Shown: piece after piece, positions 890 through 11,979 of the stretch
How the letters are laid out: every line of letters starts with the position of its first letter
Numbering within the stretch: position 1 is the first letter of the stretch
IMG/VR virus record: IMGVR_UViG_3300001472_000053
Location: 534-22,039 of that record
Reading direction: 5' to 3' (one strand)
Source: a virus
DNA length: 21,506 nucleotides
Translations under genes and position numbers: made by a program
The notes under the pieces: generated by a model
What the model was told of the DNA's origin: nothing
The model's input: the letters and a program-made list of their open reading frames with translations, nothing else
The model's database searches: none

Positions 890-1156
890 ATGGCAAATAA
901 ATTTAAAAAATCAGACTTAGCTTGTAATAAACCAAAGAAAACTCCTGGGCATAAAACAAAGTCTCATATAGTAAAAGCTTGTAAAGCTGGTAAAGAGAAA
1001 ATAATTAGATTTGGCCAACAAGGTGTAAGCACTGCTGGTAAAAAAACAGATGCTAAATCAAAAGCAAGGCGTGCTAGTTTTAAAGCTAGACATGCCAAGA
1101 ATATAAAAAGAGGCGTGTTCAGTGCCGCATACTGGGCTAATAAAGTAAAATGGTAA
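890..1156 (+). CDS. conserved small basic phage protein of unknown function (88 aa)
   Basis: The start chosen is the ATG at 890, one base after the amidase stop. An upstream in-frame ATG at 818 would lie inside the amidase gene and is rejected. The 88-residue product is strongly basic and carries a pattern I recognise from uncharacterised proteins of marine phages: an N-terminal LACNKPKKTPGHKTKSH, a central VKACKAGKEKIIRFGQQGV, then a FKARHAKN block and a terminal YWANKVKW. The conserved Cys, His, Arg and Trp positions suggest a compact fold, possibly nucleic-acid or metal binding. No catalytic signature can be named. It lies between the endolysin and another small gene that starts four bases after its stop. 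Confidence 0.78.
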   Translation: MANKFKKSDLACNKPKKTPGHKTKSHIVKACKAGKEKIIRFGQQGVSTAGKKTDAKSKARRASFKARHAKNIKRGVFSAAYWANKVKW

Positions 1157-1159
1157 ATT

Positions 1160-1447
1160 ATGGCAAATGAATTCCCAAAAATAGATAAAAAAAACGAAGG
1201 CAAATTTAAAGCTTGGATTAAAGCTAATATGAAAGGCGTTGATACTTGCTCGGCTGCTAGTAAAGTAATGGCTAACAAAGATGACTATTCTACAAATGTG
1301 GTTGAAATGGCAAACTATGCCAAGAATATGGGTTGCAAATCTAAAGGTGGACCTAAGCAGAAATCAGATGGTGATGAAAAAGGTAAAAAGAAATTACCAC
1401 CGTTTTTAGAATACAAAGATGGTAAAGTTGTAAAAAAGAAAAAGTAA
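1160..1447 (+). CDS. small Lys-rich phage protein of unknown function (95 aa)
   Basis: A 95-residue protein with a mostly helical N-terminal half (FKAWIKANMKGVDTCSAAS, VVEMANYAKNMGC) and a disordered, highly basic C-terminal third ending in a run of lysines. Two Cys residues (around 28 and 57) lie in the helical part. It starts four bases after the previous gene, and its TAA shares one base with the ATG of the next gene (TAATG at 1445-1449), so translation is probably coupled. No domain is recognised. The Lys-rich tail would suit binding to DNA or to an acidic partner, but this is speculation. Confidence 0.65.
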   Translation: MANEFPKIDKKNEGKFKAWIKANMKGVDTCSAASKVMANKDDYSTNVVEMANYAKNMGCKSKGGPKQKSDGDEKGKKKLPPFLEYKDGKVVKKKK

Positions 1448-1815
1448 TGGCTTTTAAAATGAAAGGTCTTAATATGGTTTCATATGGAGATTCTCCTAGT
1501 GGCACAACTGTAGCTGAGCCTAAAATTAAACCTTCGGAAGTTAATTTTGAAGTTCCAGGACTAGCAGAATACAAGGAGCACGTATCTAATACTCCTCAGT
1601 TTGAAGAAGGAGGTGGTATTATAAGTAAGTTAAAAACAATTGGTAAAAGGATTTTACATAATACAACAGGGCCAAGTAACCCATTAATGAATACTGGTGG
1701 TGGTGCTATAGATTTAATAGGTGGTAAAGGCGCTTATAAACTTTTATCAAGAGGTTTTGCTAAATTAGCTACTAAGCAAGCTGTTAAAAAAGGAATTGGA
1801 AAAATAACAAACTAA
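1447..1815 (+). CDS. MAFKMKG-start protein with Gly-rich amphipathic C-terminus (122 aa), unknown function
   Basis: A 122-residue protein starting MAFKMKGLNM. The same six residues after Met occur at the start of the 447-residue protein at 2807, and MAFK occurs in the protein at 2446. Residues about 12-55 are polar and probably extended. The C-terminal half (about residues 85-122) is Gly/Ala/Lys-rich with alternating hydrophobic residues (LIGGKGAYKLLSRGFAKLA), resembling membrane-active or ejection-type segments rather than a soluble enzyme. It overlaps the preceding gene by one base. I do not know its function. The shared N-terminus suggests a set of related accessory or minor virion proteins. 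Confidence 0.68.
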   Translation: MAFKMKGLNMVSYGDSPSGTTVAEPKIKPSEVNFEVPGLAEYKEHVSNTPQFEEGGGIISKLKTIGKRILHNTTGPSNPLMNTGGGAIDLIGGKGAYKLLSRGFAKLATKQAVKKGIGKITN

Positions 1816-1825
1816 AAATATAATT

Positions 1826-2101
1826 ATGGATAAATCTTGCTGTGACTACGAAAAAGGTCATTACGGAAAATACACGGGTAATCACCCTCATTACGCTAAA
1901 CACGATCAACATGGACATACACATGTAACAGACTGCAATGCTGCAGCCGCTGAAAGAGATGATAAGGCTCATATGGATTATTTAAAAAGAGATGTTCTTT
2001 ACGATAACTCTCATGGGAATAGCGACGAAAAAATGACAGCTGACGAGAAGCATATCTCTAAATTAGCTGGAGATGTTAAATATGATGAATCACATCACTA
2101 A
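1826..2101 (+). CDS. His-rich small protein, possible metal binder (91 aa)
   Basis: A 91-residue acidic protein with 12 histidines (13%): 12, 20, 22, 26, 29, 31, 33, 49, 63, 76, 90 and 91, plus Cys5, Cys6 and Cys37. The N-terminal third has a dense cluster (HYGKYTGNHPHYAKHDQHGH), followed by an Asp/Glu/Lys-rich helical-looking segment and a terminal HH. The cluster would be expected to bind transition-metal ions such as zinc, nickel or copper, but no named domain is recognised. The start is preceded by an A/T leader with no Shine-Dalgarno sequence. It sits in the same array as the other small proteins. Possible roles include a virion metal site or an accessory protein acting in the host. Confidence 0.65.
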   Translation: MDKSCCDYEKGHYGKYTGNHPHYAKHDQHGHTHVTDCNAAAAERDDKAHMDYLKRDVLYDNSHGNSDEKMTADEKHISKLAGDVKYDESHH

Positions 2102-2115
2102 TAAATAAATAAATT

Positions 2116-2286
2116 ATGGCTTATAAAAACGATAGTAATATAGCGCACTGTGGCCCAGCTCACCAAAAAAGTGCAGGAGTTAAAATGATGGGCGGATCAT
2201 TCTGTTCTAAGCATATGCAAAGTAGTGCTTATTTCAAAAACATGCCAATTGTTTCAGATCAAAACCCTGGTAAAAAAGGAGCATAA
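2116..2286 (+). CDS. small MAYK-start protein with Cys/His pairs (56 aa), unknown function
   Basis: A 56-residue frame starting at ATG 2116 after an AT-only leader (ataaataaataaatt). The product starts MAYKNDSN, a variant of the MAFK start found at 1447, 2446 and 2807. It contains two Cys/His pairs: H11-C12 with H16, and C30 with H33 (IAHCGPAH and FCSKH). These could form one metal site. The remainder is Gly/Ser/Lys-rich with no membrane segment. Its TAA overlaps the next ATG by one base (TAATG). It is too short for fold recognition by eye, but the tight tiling with its neighbours supports it. Confidence 0.6.
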   Translation: MAYKNDSNIAHCGPAHQKSAGVKMMGGSFCSKHMQSSAYFKNMPIVSDQNPGKKGA

Positions 2287-2444
2287 TGGATAAAGGTTTA
2301 GGAGATTTTATAGAAAATAAAATAACTCGACCGACAGGAATTAAAGCTGCTGTTAATATGTTGTCAGAAGGGCTTGGTATTCCTTGTGGTTGTGAAAGTA
2401 GAAAACAAGCATTAAATAGAATGATGCCTTTTAATAAAAAATAA
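2286..2444 (+). CDS. small conserved phage protein with CGC motif (52 aa)
   Basis: A 52-residue protein starting MDKGLGDFIENKITRPTGIK and containing PCGCESRKQALN near the C-terminus. The pattern GLGDxIE...TGIK...CGC..RK..LN is one I recognise from short uncharacterised proteins in phages of Bacteroidota and in marine phage contigs. The Cys pair (C34 and C36) may bind metal or form a disulphide. The function is unknown. It overlaps the previous stop by one base, and the next ATG lies at 2446, directly after its stop, so it forms part of a coupled translation string. Confidence 0.68.
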   Translation: MDKGLGDFIENKITRPTGIKAAVNMLSEGLGIPCGCESRKQALNRMMPFNKK

Positions 2445-2445
2445 T

Positions 2446-2796
2446 ATGGCTTTTAAACTAAGTAATCCTCCATACGCTGAGAATCAAACACCTGTTTATG
2501 AAAGAGATTTAGGACCAGGCGTTTTAGGTGAATCATTAAAAAATCAAGTGATAATACTAAACGACAAACTTGATCCTTCTTTTCATAAGGAAGTTAAAGG
2601 ACACGAAGATGTTCATGTTGCTCAAATGAAGTCTGGAGAATTAGATTACGATGATCAAAACATATATTGGAAAGGCGAAACAATACCAAAACATAGTGCT
2701 AGAGCTATGTCGGGTGATCCTAAGCAATTAGGATACGAAGCTCAAGCTTATAATATCTCTGGCACAAAATACAAAGATAACAAATATAACGTATAA
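2446..2796 (+). CDS. miniature HExxH metalloprotease-like protein (116 aa)
   Basis: A 116-residue protein that begins MAFKLSNPPY and carries a zincin-type motif, GHEDVHVAQM, with H53, E54 and H57 in HExxH order. Downstream, LGYEAQAY at about residues 95-102 supplies Glu98, in a position that could be the third zinc ligand, as in gluzincin-like families with an H-E-x-x-H...E arrangement. The hydrophobic strand VIILND before the motif and the W75/P81 region after it fit the usual arrangement of a strand and active-site helix in zincins. It is far smaller than classical metalloproteases, so it may be a minimal peptidase domain or a pseudo-enzyme. It has no signal peptide. Neighbours are phage small proteins and a probable minor virion protein, so a substrate in the virion or host envelope is possible. 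The motif is seen; the enzymatic role is inferred. Confidence 0.6.
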   Translation: MAFKLSNPPYAENQTPVYERDLGPGVLGESLKNQVIILNDKLDPSFHKEVKGHEDVHVAQMKSGELDYDDQNIYWKGETIPKHSARAMSGDPKQLGYEAQAYNISGTKYKDNKYNV

Positions 2797-2806
2797 AATT
2801 AAAACT

Positions 2807-4150
2807 ATGGCATTTAAAATGAAAGGCATGGCACCACCTCAAGAACCAATTGGAGCTGGTGTAAACCAAAGAACAAATATTGGAAGAGGTTTAGCTACCA
2901 TTTTTGGTAGTAAAGAAAAAAGAGAGAGAAACAAAGCTTACTTTGCAAAGAAAAAAGAAGTTAGAAAAGCTTTAAAAGAAGACGGTACATATGGTGACGT
3001 TAACAATGAGACTGGAATGGAACTTACTGGCACGGGTGTAAACTCAGGTCAGTTTACTAATTTTGGTAAAAGCACGGCTAGCACAAGAGGTAAAGCCGCT
3101 AAAGAAGTTGCTTTATCACACTTTGGTGATGAACAGTACTTTGATAGAAAAAACTATTCAGGAGCTGCTACTACTAAAAAAGTAAAAAAGAAAGATATAA
3201 ATGCTAATGCTAATGCTTATGCTAGCGCAAACCCTAATAAGTTGCTTTCTATAGATGCTGATGTTGATATTAAAAAAACTAATTATATAAAAGACGATGC
3301 TAAGGTTTATAAAACAAAAGTAACCCCTGGATCTACTAAAGTAATTCCTGGTGTAACTACTCCAGGTGCTATAAAAACAGAAACTTTTGATAATACTGAA
3401 GCTGCTACAAAAAGAAACGCAGAGTTAAAGAGGCTTGGTATGCTTAAAATGAAAGAGAATGATGGCGTTGAAATGCAAGGCGGAATGGGCTTTATGCAAA
3501 AAAGTAATATTTACGAAATAAGTGGAGCTAAAGCTAGAGTCATGCAAGCATCAAACCCAAACCCTATAACAGAAAGTTCTGAAGAAATTACTTTAGATTA
3601 TGGTGGTGGTAGTACCAATACTAAAAATCAAGAAGATTACAAAAAGAAAGGAACTTCTGGTGGTCCAAAAGCTCATGAAATAGGTGGTGAAGTATACGAA
3701 AAGTATAAAAGAGAAAAATCTAGATGCGAAAAAAATCCTAACGCAAAAGGTTGTTCGGGTTTTAATAACCCAAGCACAGACTTACCTGGTTTGAATGAAA
3801 GTAAAACTAATATTACTTTAAATTACCAAGAACCATCAACTACAACAGCTGATCAAACTATTGTTACACCAGAAAAAAGTGAAACTACAGGAACTTCTAT
3901 AGGTGGTAAAACAGGTAAAAAAATCGGAGTAGATGTAGATGCTGACATTAAAGGTAACCTACCTAAAATTACATTACCTAAAATTACATTACCTAAAATT
4001 AAATTACCAGAAGTAATTACTGATGCTAACAATGATGGTAATGTTGTAACTAGAACTGTTGATAAAATTAAAAAGAAAAGAAAAGAAAGAAAGACAGCGA
4101 GAAATGTAGCAAAAGGTAATTGCCCTCCTTGTCCTCCTTGCGAAAAATAA
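2807..4150 (+). CDS. MAFKMKG-start low-complexity protein with PKITL repeats and CPPCPPC tail (447 aa), probable minor structural protein
   Basis: A 447-residue, Lys/Thr/Asn/Gly-rich protein with little predicted globular core. It starts MAFKMKGMAPP, sharing its first residues with the product at 1447. Features in order are a basic helix around 25-55, an Asn-Ala repeat (NANANAYASANPN) near 132, a Cys pair at 307 and 316 in a KREKSRCEKNPNAKGC segment, three PKI(T/K)L repeats at 386-400, a highly basic stretch at about 418-435, and a terminal CPPCPPCEK with C439, C442 and C445. The composition resembles phage fibrous or decorating proteins more than enzymes. No characterised family is recognised. 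It has its own A-rich leader and is followed by a small gene two bases downstream. Confidence 0.72.
   Translation: MAFKMKGMAPPQEPIGAGVNQRTNIGRGLATIFGSKEKRERNKAYFAKKKEVRKALKEDGTYGDVNNETGMELTGTGVNSGQFTNFGKSTASTRGKAAKEVALSHFGDEQYFDRKNYSGAATTKKVKKKDINANANAYASANPNKLLSIDADVDIKKTNYIKDDAKVYKTKVTPGSTKVIPGVTTPGAIKTETFDNTEAATKRNAELKRLGMLKMKENDGVEMQGGMGFMQKSNIYEISGAKARVMQASNPNPITESSEEITLDYGGGSTNTKNQEDYKKKGTSGGPKAHEIGGEVYEKYKREKSRCEKNPNAKGCSGFNNPSTDLPGLNESKTNITLNYQEPSTTTADQTIVTPEKSETTGTSIGGKTGKKIGVDVDADIKGNLPKITLPKITLPKIKLPEVITDANNDGNVVTRTVDKIKKKRKERKTARNVAKGNCPPCPPCEK
3962..4006 (+). repeat. three tandem 15-base repeats coding PKITL
   Basis: Three consecutive 15-base units (3962-3976, 3977-3991, 3992-4006) of the form CCTAAAATTACATTA. 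The first two are identical and the third has one change (ACA to AAA). They encode PKITL, PKITL, PKIKL within the 447-residue protein. Their identity at DNA level indicates a recent in-frame duplication or slippage, and the repeat number could vary among relatives. Confidence 0.9.
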
Positions 4151-4151
4151 C

Positions 4152-4349
4152 ATGAGTATAAAGGGTTATAAAAAAGATAGTCCCGACGTTAACAAACCAT
4201 ACAACGTTATTCCCGGAGGTAATATAACTATGAAAGGTGTCGAGTTTAAAGTACTCGGCACTGATGATAGAGGATATACTAAGGTTATGTACCCTGGTTA
4301 TGATTATACATTTCCTGGGGCAAAGTATGTTATTGAAAAGAAAATGTAA
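4152..4349 (+). CDS. small conserved phage protein (65 aa), unknown function
   Basis: A 65-residue protein, MSIKGYKKDSPDVNKPYNVI at its start, followed by PGGNITMKGVEFKVLGTD and MYPGYDYTFPGAKYV. Alternating short hydrophobic stretches and Gly/Pro turns suggest a small beta-rich fold. I recall very similar short proteins in uncultured marine phage contigs, always near structural genes, without a known role. It begins two bases after the CPPCPPC protein and its stop overlaps the holin-like ATG by one base (TAATG at 4347-4351), so these three genes look like one translation unit. It might be a small decoration or adaptor protein. Confidence 0.72.
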   Translation: MSIKGYKKDSPDVNKPYNVIPGGNITMKGVEFKVLGTDDRGYTKVMYPGYDYTFPGAKYVIEKKM

Positions 4350-4810
4350 TGACGGATAAAAAAAGAAAAAAGTTTAAAGACACTAAAGTCGGTCAATTTT
4401 TATTAGGTAAATCAGGTCTTGTAAAAGCCATAGGAGACGTGATGCCAGATAAAGGTTTGCTAGGTATAGTTAAAAACTTAATAAATAATGATCCTGAATT
4501 ACCACAACAAGATAAAGACATTGCTTTAGCTTTACTAAAACAAGATATAGTAGAAGCTCAAGAAATAAGTAAGCGCTGGGAAAGCGATATGACATCAGAT
4601 TCCTGGCTTAGTAAAAATACTAGACCAATGACTTTAATATTTTTAACTGTATCTTTGATAGTATTTATATTATTAGATAGTTTTAATATAGAGTTTGGAA
4701 TAGATTCAGGCTGGATAGATTTATTAAAATCACTTTTAATAACTGTGTATGTAGCTTACTTTGGCTCGCGTGGAGCGGAAAAGTTTAAAAGTATAGGTAA
4801 TAATAAATAA
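4349..4810 (+). CDS. holin-like membrane protein (two C-terminal transmembrane helices)
   Basis: A 153-residue protein. Residues 1-88 form a charged, helical cytoplasmic part (KGLLGIVKNLI, QDKDIALALLKQDIVEAQE). The motif SWLSKNTRPMT then leads into transmembrane helix 1 (about 94-110), a short loop with acidic residues (about 111-120), transmembrane helix 2 (about 121-139), and the closing motif YFGSRGAEK with a basic tail. The RP before the first helix and the FGxRGxEK after the second match holins related to the gene-transfer-agent holin family (GTA_holin_3TM type). Such proteins permeabilise the inner membrane so that the endolysin can reach peptidoglycan. The endolysin lies 3.5 kb upstream, not next door. 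The product may have only two helices where the family name says three. Confidence 0.75.
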   Translation: MTDKKRKKFKDTKVGQFLLGKSGLVKAIGDVMPDKGLLGIVKNLINNDPELPQQDKDIALALLKQDIVEAQEISKRWESDMTSDSWLSKNTRPMTLIFLTVSLIVFILLDSFNIEFGIDSGWIDLLKSLLITVYVAYFGSRGAEKFKSIGNNK

Positions 4811-5076: not shown

Positions 5077-5290
5077 AATTAGAAAAATCAGCATAGGCTC
5101 TGATTATAAAAATGATGCTATGCATTATTCTGTAGGTCAAGAAGTTTATGGTGGGCATACTATATCTGACATCTTATTAGATGAAGATAGTTCTTATAAT
5201 ATTTACATAAAGAAAAACAACGAGATATTACCATGGAAAAAGTTTAATCCTAACATGGCTATATCCGTTGAATATGATTTACAATATTAA
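5066..5290 (+). CDS. small conserved phage protein (74 aa), unknown function
   Basis: A 74-residue protein with a beta-rich look: IRKISIGSDYKNDAMHYSVG, then GGHTISDILLDE, YNIYIKKNNEILPWKKF and a final ISVEYDLQY. The segment 'RKISIGxDYKNAMHY.VGQEV.GG' is one I have seen in uncharacterised phage proteins located just upstream of terminase genes. It overlaps the coiled-coil gene by 11 bases in another frame and overlaps the following ATG by one base (TAATG at 5288-5292). There are no membrane or catalytic motifs. The function is unknown. Confidence 0.73.
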   Translation: MESKIRKISIGSDYKNDAMHYSVGQEVYGGHTISDILLDEDSSYNIYIKKNNEILPWKKFNPNMAISVEYDLQY

Positions 5291-5895
5291 TGAAAGCTAT
5301 TTGGAATTTTTTAGTAAAACCTATAGGTGATAGGTATGATAATTCTGTAAAAATAAATAATAAAAATTTAATACTAAATACTAGTATTGAAAAGTTTAAG
5401 TTTATAAACAATAGAGCTGTTATAGTTAAAACACCTAAAGCTTTTAACACTGTTTTAAAAGAGGGTGATGAAATAGTAATACACCATAATGTATTTAGAA
5501 GATATTACAATCAAAAAGGTGAAGCGGTTGATAGTAGTAGAAAATTTATAGATGATTTATTTTTTTGTCAACCTGATCAAATATATTTATATAAAACAAA
5601 CAATAAGTGGAAATCATTTGGCGATAGATGTTTTGTAGCACCTATAAAAAATAAAGATCCTCTAACGTTAGATAAAGAGCAAAAGAATATTGGTATACTA
5701 AAATATGGTAATAAGCTCTTAGAAGCAAAGGGAATAAGCGAGGGAGATCTTATAGGGTTTCCTAGTATGAGAGAGTTTGAGTTTATAATAGATAACACGC
5801 GTCTTTATTGCCTACATATAGACGACATTTTAATTAAATATGAATACAAAGGAAACGAAGAAGAATATAATCCAAGCTGGGCAAAAAGCAGTTGA
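5290..5895 (+). CDS. tandem GroES-like (chaperonin-10 fold) protein, possible phage co-chaperonin
   Basis: A 201-residue protein that reads as two consecutive GroES-like barrels. Barrel 1 (about 5-102) has NFLVKP, NLILNT, a strand NRAVIVKTP, LKEGDEIVIHHN and a closing DQIYLYK. Barrel 2 (about 107-187) has GDRCFVAPI, IGILKYGN, ISEGDLIGFPS and LYCLHIDDILIKYE. These follow the order in bacterial GroES: DRVIVKR, GGIVLT, RGEVLAVGN, VKVGDIVIF and EVLIMSESDILAIV. A Trp/Tyr-containing tail (NPSWAKSS) ends the protein. No clear GroES-type hydrophobic mobile loop is visible, which weakens a direct co-chaperonin role. Phage co-chaperonins such as T4 gp31 help the host chaperonin fold capsid protein, and the position just upstream of terminase and capsid genes fits. 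The fold is inferred from sequence pattern only. Confidence 0.55.
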   Translation: MKAIWNFLVKPIGDRYDNSVKINNKNLILNTSIEKFKFINNRAVIVKTPKAFNTVLKEGDEIVIHHNVFRRYYNQKGEAVDSSRKFIDDLFFCQPDQIYLYKTNNKWKSFGDRCFVAPIKNKDPLTLDKEQKNIGILKYGNKLLEAKGISEGDLIGFPSMREFEFIIDNTRLYCLHIDDILIKYEYKGNEEEYNPSWAKSS

Positions 5896-6112
5896 GGAAT
5901 TAATAAAGGTAGCTAAAGAACCTATTGTAGATTCAGATGATGATATCTCGGCTGATCGTTTAAAGAACGCGGCTGCAACAAAAAAACTAGCTATATTTGA
6001 TGCGTTTGAAATACTTCAGCGTATACAAGAAGAAGAAAATATGTTAAATGAAAAACCTAAAAAAACAAATGAAAAAGTTTTTAAAGGTTTTGCAGAAGGT
6101 AGATCTACGTAA
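5840..6112 (+). CDS. small helical protein upstream of terL; possible small terminase subunit
   Basis: A 90-residue, almost entirely helical protein (IIQAGQKAVEELIKVAKE, AAATKKLAIFDAFEILQRIQ) with an acidic linker (VDSDDDIS) and a basic tail. It starts inside the preceding gene, a 56-base overlap in another frame, and its stop shares one base with the large terminase ATG. Position and size fit a small terminase subunit, which is often a small helical DNA-recognition protein just upstream of terL. No helix-turn-helix can be read with confidence. Alternatives are an unrelated small adaptor or regulator. I hold the function call as weak; the coding call is firmer because of the terL junction. 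Confidence 0.65.
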   Translation: MNTKETKKNIIQAGQKAVEELIKVAKEPIVDSDDDISADRLKNAAATKKLAIFDAFEILQRIQEEENMLNEKPKKTNEKVFKGFAEGRST

Positions 6113-8316
6113 TGTATAATCAAGAATTATACAAAGTACTAAAAGATCACGTTAAACCTCATGTTCTTACTAAATTAAATAAAGGTAAGAAATGGAAGTA
6201 TGGTTACAACGAAGAGCATGACGTTATAGTTATAAGTAAAAGTGGCCAAATCGGTGACATATACGAAATACAAAACTTAAAAATAGCTTTACCTAAAGAG
6301 TCGAATTTAGTTAAATTTAAATCCGACAAATGGACAAGAACAAACATACCTGAAGAGTTAAAAAGAATAAAAACAAGGTTCGATTGGGAAGAATACCCTT
6401 TAGACTTTAAAGAAAAGTGGTATGATTACATCGATAAAGAATTTATTAAAAGAGAAGAAGGGTTATGGTTCTATAATAAGGGCGTGGCTACTTACATTAC
6501 TGGCACTCACTATATGTACTTGCAGTGGTCCAAAATTGATGTTGGGAAGCCAGACTTTAGAGAAGCAAATAGATTATTCTACATTTTCTGGGAAGCTTGC
6601 AAAGCCGATGAACGGTCTTATGGAATGTGTTATCTTAAAAACCGTAGGTCAGGCTTCTCATTTATGTCCTCAGCTGAGTCGGTCAACCTTGCTACGATAT
6701 CAACGGATTCACGGTTCGGAATATTGTCCAAATCTGGTGCCGATGCTAAGACTATGTTCACAGATAAGGTGGTACCAATTTCCGTCAACTATCCCTTCTT
6801 TTTCAAGCCGATACAGGACGGAATGGACAGGCCCAAGACCGAGCTCGCCTACAGAGTCCCTGCCTCCAAATTTACCCGTAGAAAACTGGAAGCCAATGAA
6901 AAAACCCAAGAAATTGCCGGTTTGGATACCACCATCGACTGGAAGAATACCGGCGACAACGCCTACGATGGGGAGAAACTTAAACTCCTCGTCCACGATG
7001 AGAGCGGGAAATGGGAAAGGCCAAACAACATTAACAACAACTGGAGGGTTACGAAAACCACCCTTAGACTAGGTAGTAGAATAGTAGGTAAATGCATGAT
7101 GGGATCAACTAGCAACTCGCTAGATAAAGGTGGAGAGAACTTCAAAAAACTTTATAATGATTCAGATGTTACAAAAAGAAACGCCAATGGACAGACTCGC
7201 TCAGGATTATATAGTTTGTTCGTACCTATGGAATGGAACTACGAAGGATACATTGATTCTTATGGAATACCTGTATTCGAAAATCCAAAAGAAAAAATTC
7301 TTGGACCACATGGTAATGAAATAAAATTAGGTGTAATAAACTATTGGCAAAATGAAGTTGATGGTTTAAAAGGCGATCAAGAAGCTTTAAACGAGTTTTA
7401 CAGACAATTTCCAAGAACAGAGCAACATGCTTTTAGAGACGAGGCAAAATCTTCTTTATTTAATTTAACTAAAATATATCAACAGGTTGATTACAATGAA
7501 GATCTTAGGAATTCTAGTATAATAACAAAAGGTTCTTTTAGATGGGAAAATGGGCAGAAAGACACTAAGGTCATATTTTATCCAAACAATGACGGTAGGT
7601 TCTTAATTAGTTGGGTTCCACCATTACATTTACAAAATAAAATAGTTTTAAAAAGAGGCGCTAAGTATCCAGGAAACGAACACGTTGGCGCATTTGGTTG
7701 TGATAGTTACGATATATCTGGTACGGTTGACAGAAGAGGATCTAACGGATCTCTACACGGTTTAACTAAATTTAGCATGGAAGATGCACCCGCTAATCAT
7801 TTCTTTTTAGAATATGTAGCAAGACCTCAAACAGCAGAGATATTTTTTGAAGATGTTTTAATGGCTTGTGTTTTTTACGGCATGCCGATACTTGCTGAAA
7901 ACAATAAACCTAGATTATTATATCATTTTAAAAGAAGAGGTTATAGAGGTTATAGCATGAACAGGCCTGATAAGTTAAAACTATCAATAACAGAAAGAGA
8001 AATTGGTGGAGTGCCAAACTCAAGTGAAGACATGAAGCAAGCTCACGCTGCAGCTATAGAAACATATATAGAATCTCATGTAGGATTATTACCAGAAGGT
8101 TATGGAGACATGTATTTTCAAAGAACCTTAAATGATTGGGCTAGATTTGATATAAATAATAGAACAAAGCATGATGCTTCTATTAGCTCTGGTTTAGCTT
8201 TGATGGCATGCAACAAACATAGATATAGACCAATAGCAGAAAAAATAGTAAAATCAGTTTCTTTGGGTTTTAAAAAATATGATAACAAAGGAGATACTTC
8301 AAAAATAATTAAGTAA
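6112..8316 (+). CDS. terL: terminase large subunit (packaging ATPase and nuclease)
   Basis: A 734-residue DNA-packaging motor that docks on the portal, pumps DNA into the prohead with ATP and cuts the concatemer. The ATPase motifs are a deviant Walker A at 176-183 (KNRRSGFS, same pattern as the KSARVGYS of lambda gpA, with the lysine at the first position), Walker B at 292-297 (LLVHDE, D296/E297) and a coupling motif near 331-335 (GSTSN). The RNase H-like nuclease domain shows D531 (AFGCDSYD), E596 (ILAENNK) and D688 (KHDAS) as the likely metal-binding acidic triad. It overlaps the preceding stop by one base and ends directly against the portal ATG. Length is in the range of large TerL proteins of Bacteroidota phages. 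A GC-rich segment with different codon choice lies within the ATPase domain (6661-7020). Confidence 0.93.
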   Translation: MYNQELYKVLKDHVKPHVLTKLNKGKKWKYGYNEEHDVIVISKSGQIGDIYEIQNLKIALPKESNLVKFKSDKWTRTNIPEELKRIKTRFDWEEYPLDFKEKWYDYIDKEFIKREEGLWFYNKGVATYITGTHYMYLQWSKIDVGKPDFREANRLFYIFWEACKADERSYGMCYLKNRRSGFSFMSSAESVNLATISTDSRFGILSKSGADAKTMFTDKVVPISVNYPFFFKPIQDGMDRPKTELAYRVPASKFTRRKLEANEKTQEIAGLDTTIDWKNTGDNAYDGEKLKLLVHDESGKWERPNNINNNWRVTKTTLRLGSRIVGKCMMGSTSNSLDKGGENFKKLYNDSDVTKRNANGQTRSGLYSLFVPMEWNYEGYIDSYGIPVFENPKEKILGPHGNEIKLGVINYWQNEVDGLKGDQEALNEFYRQFPRTEQHAFRDEAKSSLFNLTKIYQQVDYNEDLRNSSIITKGSFRWENGQKDTKVIFYPNNDGRFLISWVPPLHLQNKIVLKRGAKYPGNEHVGAFGCDSYDISGTVDRRGSNGSLHGLTKFSMEDAPANHFFLEYVARPQTAEIFFEDVLMACVFYGMPILAENNKPRLLYHFKRRGYRGYSMNRPDKLKLSITEREIGGVPNSSEDMKQAHAAAIETYIESHVGLLPEGYGDMYFQRTLNDWARFDINNRTKHDASISSGLALMACNKHRYRPIAEKIVKSVSLGFKKYDNKGDTSKIIK
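6661..7020 (+). other. GC-rich, codon-atypical patch inside terL
   Basis: By hand count 175 of 360 bases are G or C (49%), and 122 of 240 (51%) in 6781-7020, against 28% and 37% in two 60-base blocks downstream (7321-7380 and 7381-7440). None of the eight leucine codons in the patch is TTA (they are CTT, TTG, CTC, CTG, TTG, CTT, CTC, CTC), whereas seven of nine leucines in the first 100 codons of the gene are TTA. Flanking 60-base blocks are near 42%, so edges are gradual. The reading frame and ATPase motifs are intact. It looks like a recombination or conversion tract from a donor of higher GC. Confidence 0.75.
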
Positions 8317-10753: not shown

Positions 10754-10767
10754 TATATTATATTATG
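10754..10767 (+). promoter_or_regulatory. AT-only leader shared with the gene at 13572
   Basis: The 14 bases TATATTATATTATG, including the start codon, precede the scaffold-like gene and are repeated exactly at 13561-13574 before another gene. No Shine-Dalgarno sequence is present. It may be a translation enhancer of the Bacteroidota type or part of a phage late promoter. Low sequence complexity means chance similarity is possible. Confidence 0.3.
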
Positions 10768-11979
10768 TCAGAAGAAACAACAAATCAACCTGCAAAACAG
10801 GAAGGAGAATTTACACTAAAAGGTAAATTAAAAACAAAACCTAAGCAATTAGGTAAACAAGATTCACCAGTAAAGGTGAACTTAACGGCTAAAGAAGCTC
10901 AAGGTGAAGTTATACCTGAGGTTACTAAAGTAGAAATAAAAAAAGAAGATAATGCCATTTCAGAGCAAGAAACAGGAGAACTGGCTGAAGTTAAACAAGC
11001 CGGAGATATACCTCAAGTGGAAGAACAGGTACAAGAGCCCAGCTCCGATGCTGTCATTCCGCTCCAAGAAATAACAAAAGAAGAGGTACAACAAGAGGTA
11101 AAGCAAGTTGAAAACCAAATTAAAGAAGCAAAAAGAGATGCTAAATTAAGCGGTCAACCTTTACCAGAAAATATTGAAAAGCTAGTAACATTTATGAATG
11201 ATACTGGCGGTACATTAGAAGATTACGTTAGATTAAACGCTGATTATTCTAATGTTGATAATACAGCTTTAATTAGAGAGTATTATAAACAAACTAAACC
11301 TCATTTAGATTCTGAAGATGTTAGTCTTTTATTAGAAGATTATTTATTTGATGATGAAATAGATGAGCCAAAAGAAATACGCAAAAAGAAAATTGCGTTT
11401 AAAGAAGAAGTTGCAAAAGCACAGAACTTTTTAGAAGATGCTAAGAGTAAATACTACGACGAGATCAAGTTGAGACCGGGCGTAACTCAAGATCAACAAA
11501 AAGCTATGGACTTTTTCAACCGCTATAATGACGAGCAAGATATAGTTGCAGAACAACACGCTCAGTTTAAAGACCAAACTAAAGACTGGTTCACTAATAA
11601 ATTCAAAGGTTTTGATATTAAAGTAGGTGAAAAAACTTTTAGATACGGTTTAAAAAACACTGATGCAGTTGCAGATAGACAGTCGGATGTTGGTAATACT
11701 ATTAAGAAGTTTCTTGATAATGATGGCAACGTGGTAGATATTGCTGGATATCACAAGGCTATATATGCCGCAGATAATGTTGATACTATAGCTAATCATT
11801 TTTACGAGCAAGGTAAAGCCGACGCTGTAAAAAATATGATGGCTAAATCTAAAAACATAGAACAAGAACCTCGTAGAGTTGCGAGTGGCGAAGTCTTTGT
11901 TAATGGAATAAAAGTAAAAGCATTAAGTGGTGTTGACTCCTCAAAACTTAAAATAAAAAAAGTAACAATTAAAAATTAA
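10765..11979 (+). CDS. probable head scaffolding protein
   Basis: A 404-residue acidic, Glu/Lys/Gln-rich protein placed between portal and major capsid protein, the standard place of a scaffold. Residues 1-105 are low-complexity and likely disordered. A coiled coil (EEVQQEVKQVENQIKEAK) lies near 107-125, followed by a conserved-looking region (TLEDYVRLNADYSNVD, REYYKQTKPHLDSEDVSLL, then acidic YLFDDEIDE and a basic helix). The C-terminus is a short basic beta-type tail (SSKLKIKKVTIKN), similar to capsid-binding tails of scaffolds. Such proteins guide prohead assembly and then leave. A brief GC-richer stretch (about 11032-11070) interrupts the AT-rich coding. The role is inferred from position and composition. 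Confidence 0.75.
   Translation: MSEETTNQPAKQEGEFTLKGKLKTKPKQLGKQDSPVKVNLTAKEAQGEVIPEVTKVEIKKEDNAISEQETGELAEVKQAGDIPQVEEQVQEPSSDAVIPLQEITKEEVQQEVKQVENQIKEAKRDAKLSGQPLPENIEKLVTFMNDTGGTLEDYVRLNADYSNVDNTALIREYYKQTKPHLDSEDVSLLLEDYLFDDEIDEPKEIRKKKIAFKEEVAKAQNFLEDAKSKYYDEIKLRPGVTQDQQKAMDFFNRYNDEQDIVAEQHAQFKDQTKDWFTNKFKGFDIKVGEKTFRYGLKNTDAVADRQSDVGNTIKKFLDNDGNVVDIAGYHKAIYAADNVDTIANHFYEQGKADAVKNMMAKSKNIEQEPRRVASGEVFVNGIKVKALSGVDSSKLKIKKVTIKN

Follow-up and report, generated by a model that had tools for sequence, protein, structure and literature searches.

In phage T4, the internal proteins share nothing but a packaging leader of 10–20 residues, which, according to the sections cited here, directs them into the prohead core for injection (PMC3012670, PMC5694885, PMC12373910); 10-residue leaders are annotated for IpIII and IpII in the T4 record X04567. 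For SPN3US and related giant phages, the section cited describes an N-terminal element of ejection proteins that is believed to direct head proteins, themselves diverged, into the prohead (PMC5694885), and the crassvirus phicrAss001, a Bacteroidota phage, is described in the section cited as storing proteins for ejection in its capsid and tail, among them gp45, gp46 and RNA polymerase subunits (PMC10172136). Here we describe a short N-terminal start, MAFK and its variants, on otherwise unrelated small late proteins in a 21,506-nucleotide stretch of the IMG/VR virus record IMGVR_UViG_3300001472_000053 (C1:534-22039; the full record has 37,026 bases). This whole stretch is hereafter called the window. 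We read the start as a modular address tag whose most likely role, at a probability of about one in two, would be to load hypervariable cargo into the prohead.

The T4 capsid targeting sequence (CTS), carried by IpI, IpII, IpIII and Alt, is likewise a short N-terminal stretch on otherwise unrelated, hypervariable small proteins, which are non-essential according to the same sections. Both features have their counterpart here: a short N-terminal sequence is common to unrelated proteins of one genome, that of the window record, and the bodies behind it are hypervariable and basic, as in T4-type cargo (144 clusters; net charge +8.6%). The sequences themselves are unrelated by inspection (MAFKMKG and MAYIQxNNPF versus MKTYQEFIAE). 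Unlike the T4 CTS, the tag described here came with no clear cleavage site, exists in two interchangeable classes and sits on many more bodies. On such a comparison, the tag is analogous to the T4 CTS, not homologous to it. The SPN3US propeptides, as far as they are described in the section cited, differ from a tag of 7–12 residues in that several exceed 100 residues and are removed by a prohead protease, whereas the phicrAss001 cargo consists of a few large proteins for which that section describes no common N-terminal tag.

The shared start in the window and across its clade

The starts in question lie in a block of small genes that spans 890-4349 in the window:

1447..1815, plus strand: tagged gene 1, 122 residues, start MAFKMKGLNM; the tag is codons 1–7 (1447-1467)
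2116..2286, plus strand: gene for 56 residues with the look-alike start MAYKNDSNIA, probably not a tag
2446..2796, plus strand: tagged gene 2, putative HExxH...E metallopeptidase, 116 residues, start MAFKLSNPPY
2807..4150, plus strand: tagged gene 3, 447 residues, low complexity, start MAFKMKGMAP; the tag is codons 1–7 (2807-2827)

Searched with ATGGCNTWYAAR, the 37,026-base record gave four occurrences, every one at one of these starts (1447, 2116, 2446, 2807), and the reversed control gave none. The first-pass annotation had seen in the four genes a common tag on unrelated bodies. Such a tag was borne out, conserved as protein, and is retained in the orthologues of three of the four genes. 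All four members of family 1447 start with MAFKM, and 80 of the 101 members of family 2446 with M[AG][FY]K; in family 2807, both clustered members and two further relatives (L001 and L113) start with MAFKMKG, the relatives that keep it being L141, L113 and L001, while a third further relative, in L124, has MAFKMRG preceded by an upstream in-frame ATG. Gene 2116 probably drops out of the set. Its family starts with MAYK in two of four members, MAYT in one and MGHD in one, and its start is therefore probably a chance look-alike.

Unbiased frequencies come from 80 loci (L001–L080) and the window, a set retrieved by means of the terminase and selected without reference to the tag; loci L088–L207 were retrieved via the tag itself, which biases any frequency over them. 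In the terminase-retrieved set of 1024 unique proteins, 35 have a MA[FY]K start, where positional frequencies predict 4.2. A tag-like start is present in 21 of the 30 loci having at least 3.5 kb upstream of the terminase, L068 being scored here as without a tag since its flagged gene is the terminase (the script flagged 22).

The impression that similar starts recur in related marine phages was likewise supported. As a DNA pattern, MAFKMKG was found at at least 120 loci in the IMG/VR viral contigs (viral_contigs), against 8 for the scrambled MAKFMGK, and 257 Gb of bacterial and archaeal genomes gave 27 matches. Clade markers accompany 118 of the 120 loci listed (the window-type terminase at 65 loci and elsewhere in the record for 41; other window-like genes at 12; none at 2). 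The tag is thus confined to one phage clade and marks it: the window's own clade of uncultured marine podoviruses. Over 42 records, the MA[FY]K pattern matched 116 times, forward or reverse, versus 5 times for the pattern in reverse. Retrieval by the tag had supplied 33 of the records; the remaining nine, terminase-retrieved, hold 10 matches versus 2 for the control. MA[FY]K starts per record reach eight (G033), and the window record has three tagged genes. In a terminase tree computed in quick mode, FKMKG-bearing loci occupy several branches and one 30-row branch carries FKMKG throughout; this label follows the tag-based retrieval and changes at least seven times. The MAFKMKG string had no match in PMC text, four shorter strings led to unrelated subjects among the matches listed, and a literature search on N-terminal motifs of internal virion proteins listed unrelated subjects; a made-up consensus tag peptide, used as a query, had no match in the phages collection.

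It is the peptide on which selection acts, because the Gly codon is free and copies differ inside one genome. In the 146 MAFKMKG proteins, Gly7 is encoded by GGT (56), GGC (34), GGG (29) and GGA (27), and the third base of this codon holds almost no information (143 representatives). When MAFKMKG genes of the same locus are paired, one pair in 34 has identical 18 tag nucleotides, compared with 8% of random pairs, so that recent copying is not supported as the cause of the shared start. The core [FY]K[ML][KR]G occurs 184 times in 2775 unique proteins: 160 times at residue 3, 20 times elsewhere in residues 2–25 and four times beyond residue 25. Four of the 20 displaced cores belong to MAFKMKG starts that have an in-frame ATG upstream; the remaining ones, among them MSGFKMKG, MSEYTPFKMKG and MARKSKAKFKMKG, show that the core is independent of the position of the start codon. 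With a core displaced by 1–15 residues from its usual place, a free Gly codon and a rare scrambled peptide, codon composition of the start region is excluded as the source of the similarity.

In many cases the core, mostly at residues 3–7, has S-[PA]-[LMAF]-[KQEN] in the 30 or so residues after it, a second element found in residues 8–35 of 45 of the 133 MA[FY]K representatives (2.4 in shuffles). There is, moreover, a second N-terminal tag, MA[YF]xQxNNPF, at 38 loci versus none for a scrambled control, the scans having used its MAY form (MAY[KI]QxNNPF). It is equally clade-bound, with the window-type terminase in 33 of 33 newly fetched records, although the match in G084 is short and weak. Judging by the sequences, the two tags are interchangeable on the same bodies. 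A body beginning GGYHKGQV follows MAFKMKGFSGFK, a MAFKMKG start, in L191 and MAYKQKNNPF in L283 and L119; DUF6321 bodies occur with either tag class; and in 17 groups of related bodies the members differ in tag class or in whether they are tagged at all, some of the "untagged" ones having a looser tag (e.g., MAFKL) that the filter missed. Of the 5'-end shuffling suggested at first, recent copying is not supported, while an older swapping of tags is supported, because one body may carry either tag class or none. Still another common start was seen within the block at L246:16045-16480, where two neighbouring genes begin with MGWFKVMGGVTTPFLQKKP and MGLFKFIGGVATPFLQKSY.

Bodies carried behind the tag

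Compared by BLAST from residue 11 onward, the proteins form 144 body clusters in which an M[AG][FY]K start occurs once or more, and 106 of these are singletons; the clusters include some chance starts (MAFKDP, MAFKRW), and low-complexity masking can hide kinship. Among 143 representatives, Pfam recognized DUF6321 in two and a viral polymerase model in one, and the PHROGs families that were matched have at most two members each. Nearly all tagged bodies belong to uncharacterised families. Apart from the HExxH family, tagged proteins contain more Lys than do the clade's other small proteins (16.9% vs. 9.8%), carry a higher net charge (+8.6% vs. -1.2%) and have fewer hydrophobic residues (26% vs. 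35%). All 178 tagged genes share the strand of the terminase, versus 1795 of 1936 untagged genes (Fisher p 4.9e-6). In three largely fetched genomes (G033, G026, G019), they lie around GroEL/GroES and before the terminase, and in the latter two also past a giant virion protein. Many tagged proteins have a D-x-D-G-D/N motif (e.g., PDFLDLDGDGNKTESMK; L088:4371-5075, L103, L012:4500-4811); in the 143 representatives, D.DGN occurs 11 times versus 0.57 in shuffles, and D.DGD 10 times versus 0.7.

Two untagged genes at the edges of the block bear on the origin of this arrangement:

890..1156, plus strand: untagged gene, ATG at 890, 88 residues, phrog_7595
4152..4349, plus strand: small untagged gene, 65 residues, start MSIKGYKKDSPDV

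Relatives of the gene 890 body carry MAYIQHNNPF in L262 and L285. Gene 4152 encodes, as a stand-alone protein, the N-terminal domain of gp41, an 896-residue virion structural protein of Cellulophaga phage phi17:2; within the clade, this domain is usually untagged, and it starts with MAFKMKG in L140 and MAFKMR in L171. The domain is also N-terminal in an 896-residue virion structural protein of phi4:1 and was seen at L243:11968-14655. Conversely, DUF6321 starts without the tag in pelagiphage HTVC028P, and so do the HExxH relatives from Xanthomonas phage XacN1 and Methylophilales phage Melnitz. Since other phages have HExxH and DUF6321 bodies with no tag and the domains of genes 4152 and 890 are tagged in some relatives, it follows that the tag was joined several times to pre-existing bodies.

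The HExxH protein (gene 2446) is likely a mini-metallopeptidase, putatively gluzincin-like and ImmA/IrrE-like. In an alignment of 79 rows (the window and 78 of 98 eligible relatives, those omitted including several with longer or different N-termini), H53, E54, H57 and E98 are invariant, i.e., HExxH is present with the pattern of a downstream Glu ligand. F3 and K4 stand at 90% or more in the same alignment, an upper figure given the choice of rows, while residues 5–20 vary. The structure model (pLDDT 81) gave weak fold matches to IrrE (Z 5.9, 88 residues, 4.2 A), the zymogen of the minigluzincin abylysin (Z 5.0) and the protease of DPC repair (Z 4.8), and Foldseek gave no match under E 0.3 with this model. 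A relative from an Ochrobactrum phage is annotated as an ImmA/IrrE metallopeptidase. Within the phages collection, none of the HExxH relatives found carries the tag.

Setting of the tagged block

Other genes of the window are:

starts 463: amidase
4349..4810, plus strand: holin-like gene, 3' of the tagged block (phrog_3427, E 2.3e-18)
starts 5290: GroES-like gene
6112..8316, plus strand: terminase large subunit, marker of the tag-bearing clade (phrog_6681, E 6e-165)
starts 8317: portal
10765..11979, plus strand: scaffold-like gene, situated between the portal and capsid genes, with ...EGEFTLKGK... at the N-terminus; a candidate tag partner only
starts 11985: capsid-type structural protein

By their terminase, the relatives with named records are Bacteroidota phages, namely Flavobacterium phage elemo, Cellulophaga phages phi38:1 and phi19:3, Maribacter phage Panino and Tenacibaculum phage Gundel, and the terminase of the uncultured Manatee Spring genome is 63.5% identical to that of the window. 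The GroES-like gene stands directly before the terminase (5290-6112 region), with an overlap of about 55 bases with the next gene; the clade also has GroEL and a second GroES, both upstream. In three genomes, the terminase match falls in two parts (G011:C1:15974-18191; G017:C1:1435-3667; G098:C1:31466-33687), the longer match in G011 having one internal TGA and G017 and G098 having two adjacent matches. Each genome has one giant late protein of more than 2900 residues downstream of the tail genes (L245:7838-16567, 2909 residues; L248:5888-16993, 3701 residues). The one in G033 starts with MKKPSPFLQ, and we considered this protein as a carrier of an SPFLQ-type start, but the G000 copy has no such motif and the idea was dropped.

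Destination of the tagged proteins

Because the T4 internal proteins are packaged by a shared leader (PMC3012670, PMC5694885 and PMC12373910, in the sections cited), prohead loading appears to us the most likely role of the tag. The MAFK-type starts would then be a modular, exchangeable address on many unrelated late proteins, read during assembly by a single structural partner such as the scaffold, the portal, the coat or a large internal protein. This reader would bring the Lys-rich, mostly low-hydrophobicity proteins and the small HExxH protein inside the prohead, from which they would be ejected together with the DNA, and the hypervariable bodies might act as host-takeover or anti-defence cargo, as in the case of the T4 internal proteins. 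What the sequences show is the tag and its modularity; the structural reader, the head location, the ejection and the cargo function are what we infer. One point in favour of such a role is the match between the gene 4152 domain, which is tagged in L140 and L171, and an annotated virion protein of phi17:2. A bolder formulation, which we advance tentatively and at somewhat less than even odds, is that one marine clade possesses a general virion-loading code, with two interchangeable tags of 7–12 residues, unrelated to those of T4, which any late protein can acquire and which would bring dozens of rapidly changing, largely uncharacterised families, along with a small metallopeptidase, into the cell with the DNA.

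A number of observations weigh against prohead loading. A virion proteome of the clade was not found in the material searched, and a PHROGs scan of part of the window genes revealed none for a prohead protease. The pattern of a T4-like cleavage site ([LI]xE in residues 8–35) occurs in 25 of 133 representatives, against 15.2 in shuffles, which gives no clear signal of such a site. Of the 30 loci retrieved by the terminase that extend 3.5 kb or more upstream, nine (L068 among them) lack a tag. A related terminase (32–63% identity) is present in six isolates or named genomes, and in the stretches read no tagged gene lies near it, so the head architecture works without the tag; the single MAFK match there, in L082, falls inside another gene region, far upstream. 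No tag was seen in the phi38:1, phi19:3, Panino and Gundel regions, and it is absent from the stretches read of named relatives with annotated virion proteins. Nor did two candidate connections to the head hold. Of 55 scaffold-like proteins, 23 have FK[IMLV][KR] in their first 60 residues (shuffles, 0.4), and one branch has a similar FK[IL]K element; the motif is missing from the tag-rich branch, however, and the scaffold as the tag reader is kept as a lead only. A DUF6321 body joined to a CTS-like start was found in one of three T4-like phages, which is too weak. As to the scaffold-like proteins themselves, that of elemo starts with MFKMK, repeated motifs of the K-V-D-L type come after FK[IMLV][KR], and the model of the window's protein (10765) is mostly helical, with low confidence over residues 1–104 and no protease feature seen.

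The strongest alternative is that the tag addresses proteins to another place, be it the tail or virion surface, the packaging motor, the lysis machinery, the phage GroEL/GroES or a host component, and that tagged proteins never enter the head. We regard this as a serious possibility, if a less probable one. The tagged genes of G033, G026 and G019 do lie among GroEL, GroES, holin and terminase genes, and the sequence in no way favours the head over other late structures. However, GroEL/GroES are also present in tag-free relatives (the Manatee Spring phage and elemo), the Lys-rich, hydrophobicity-poor bodies look more like head cargo than like tail or membrane parts, and tagged bodies include a domain of a virion structural protein.

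It is rather improbable that the shared start is a relic, without any signal, of a fast-diverging multigene family or of 5'-end shuffling. The 106 singletons among 144 clusters are what very fast divergence predicts, and tags do pass between bodies. Yet bodies of the HExxH, DUF6321 and phrog_7595 types exist without the tag in other phages, which points to the addition of the tag to existing bodies; tag DNA is almost never identical within a locus (the 1 of 34 pairs above); F3 and K4 reach 90% in the HExxH alignment, where residues 5–20 are variable; and the motif is retained when displaced.

Finally, an effect of translation start (a favoured GCA second codon, an A-rich start of low structure) or chance has very little in its favour: GCA is indeed as common at Ala codon 2 in untagged genes (254 of 372) as in MAFKMKG genes (103 of 146), so that tagged and untagged genes share the start context, but FKMKG also occurs at residues 4–18 behind other starts and the scrambled peptide at 8 loci versus at least 120, which refutes this as a full account, and Gly7 uses all four codons in a tag confined to one clade.

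Even if the tagged proteins go elsewhere, a clade-wide, swappable N-terminal tag on more than 100 body clusters is unusual. Should it prove to be a loading signal, the tag would represent a second way, independent of that of T4, of packaging hypervariable cargo by one short and constant signal, and its peptide would be a candidate for putting chosen proteins into marine podovirus heads. One could then tell from sequence alone which proteins an uncultured group of marine phages injects, the tag serving, for uncultured phages that are abundant, as a list of injected effectors that can be read off the genome, and it is in such a repertoire that new anti-defence and host-takeover proteins would likely be found.

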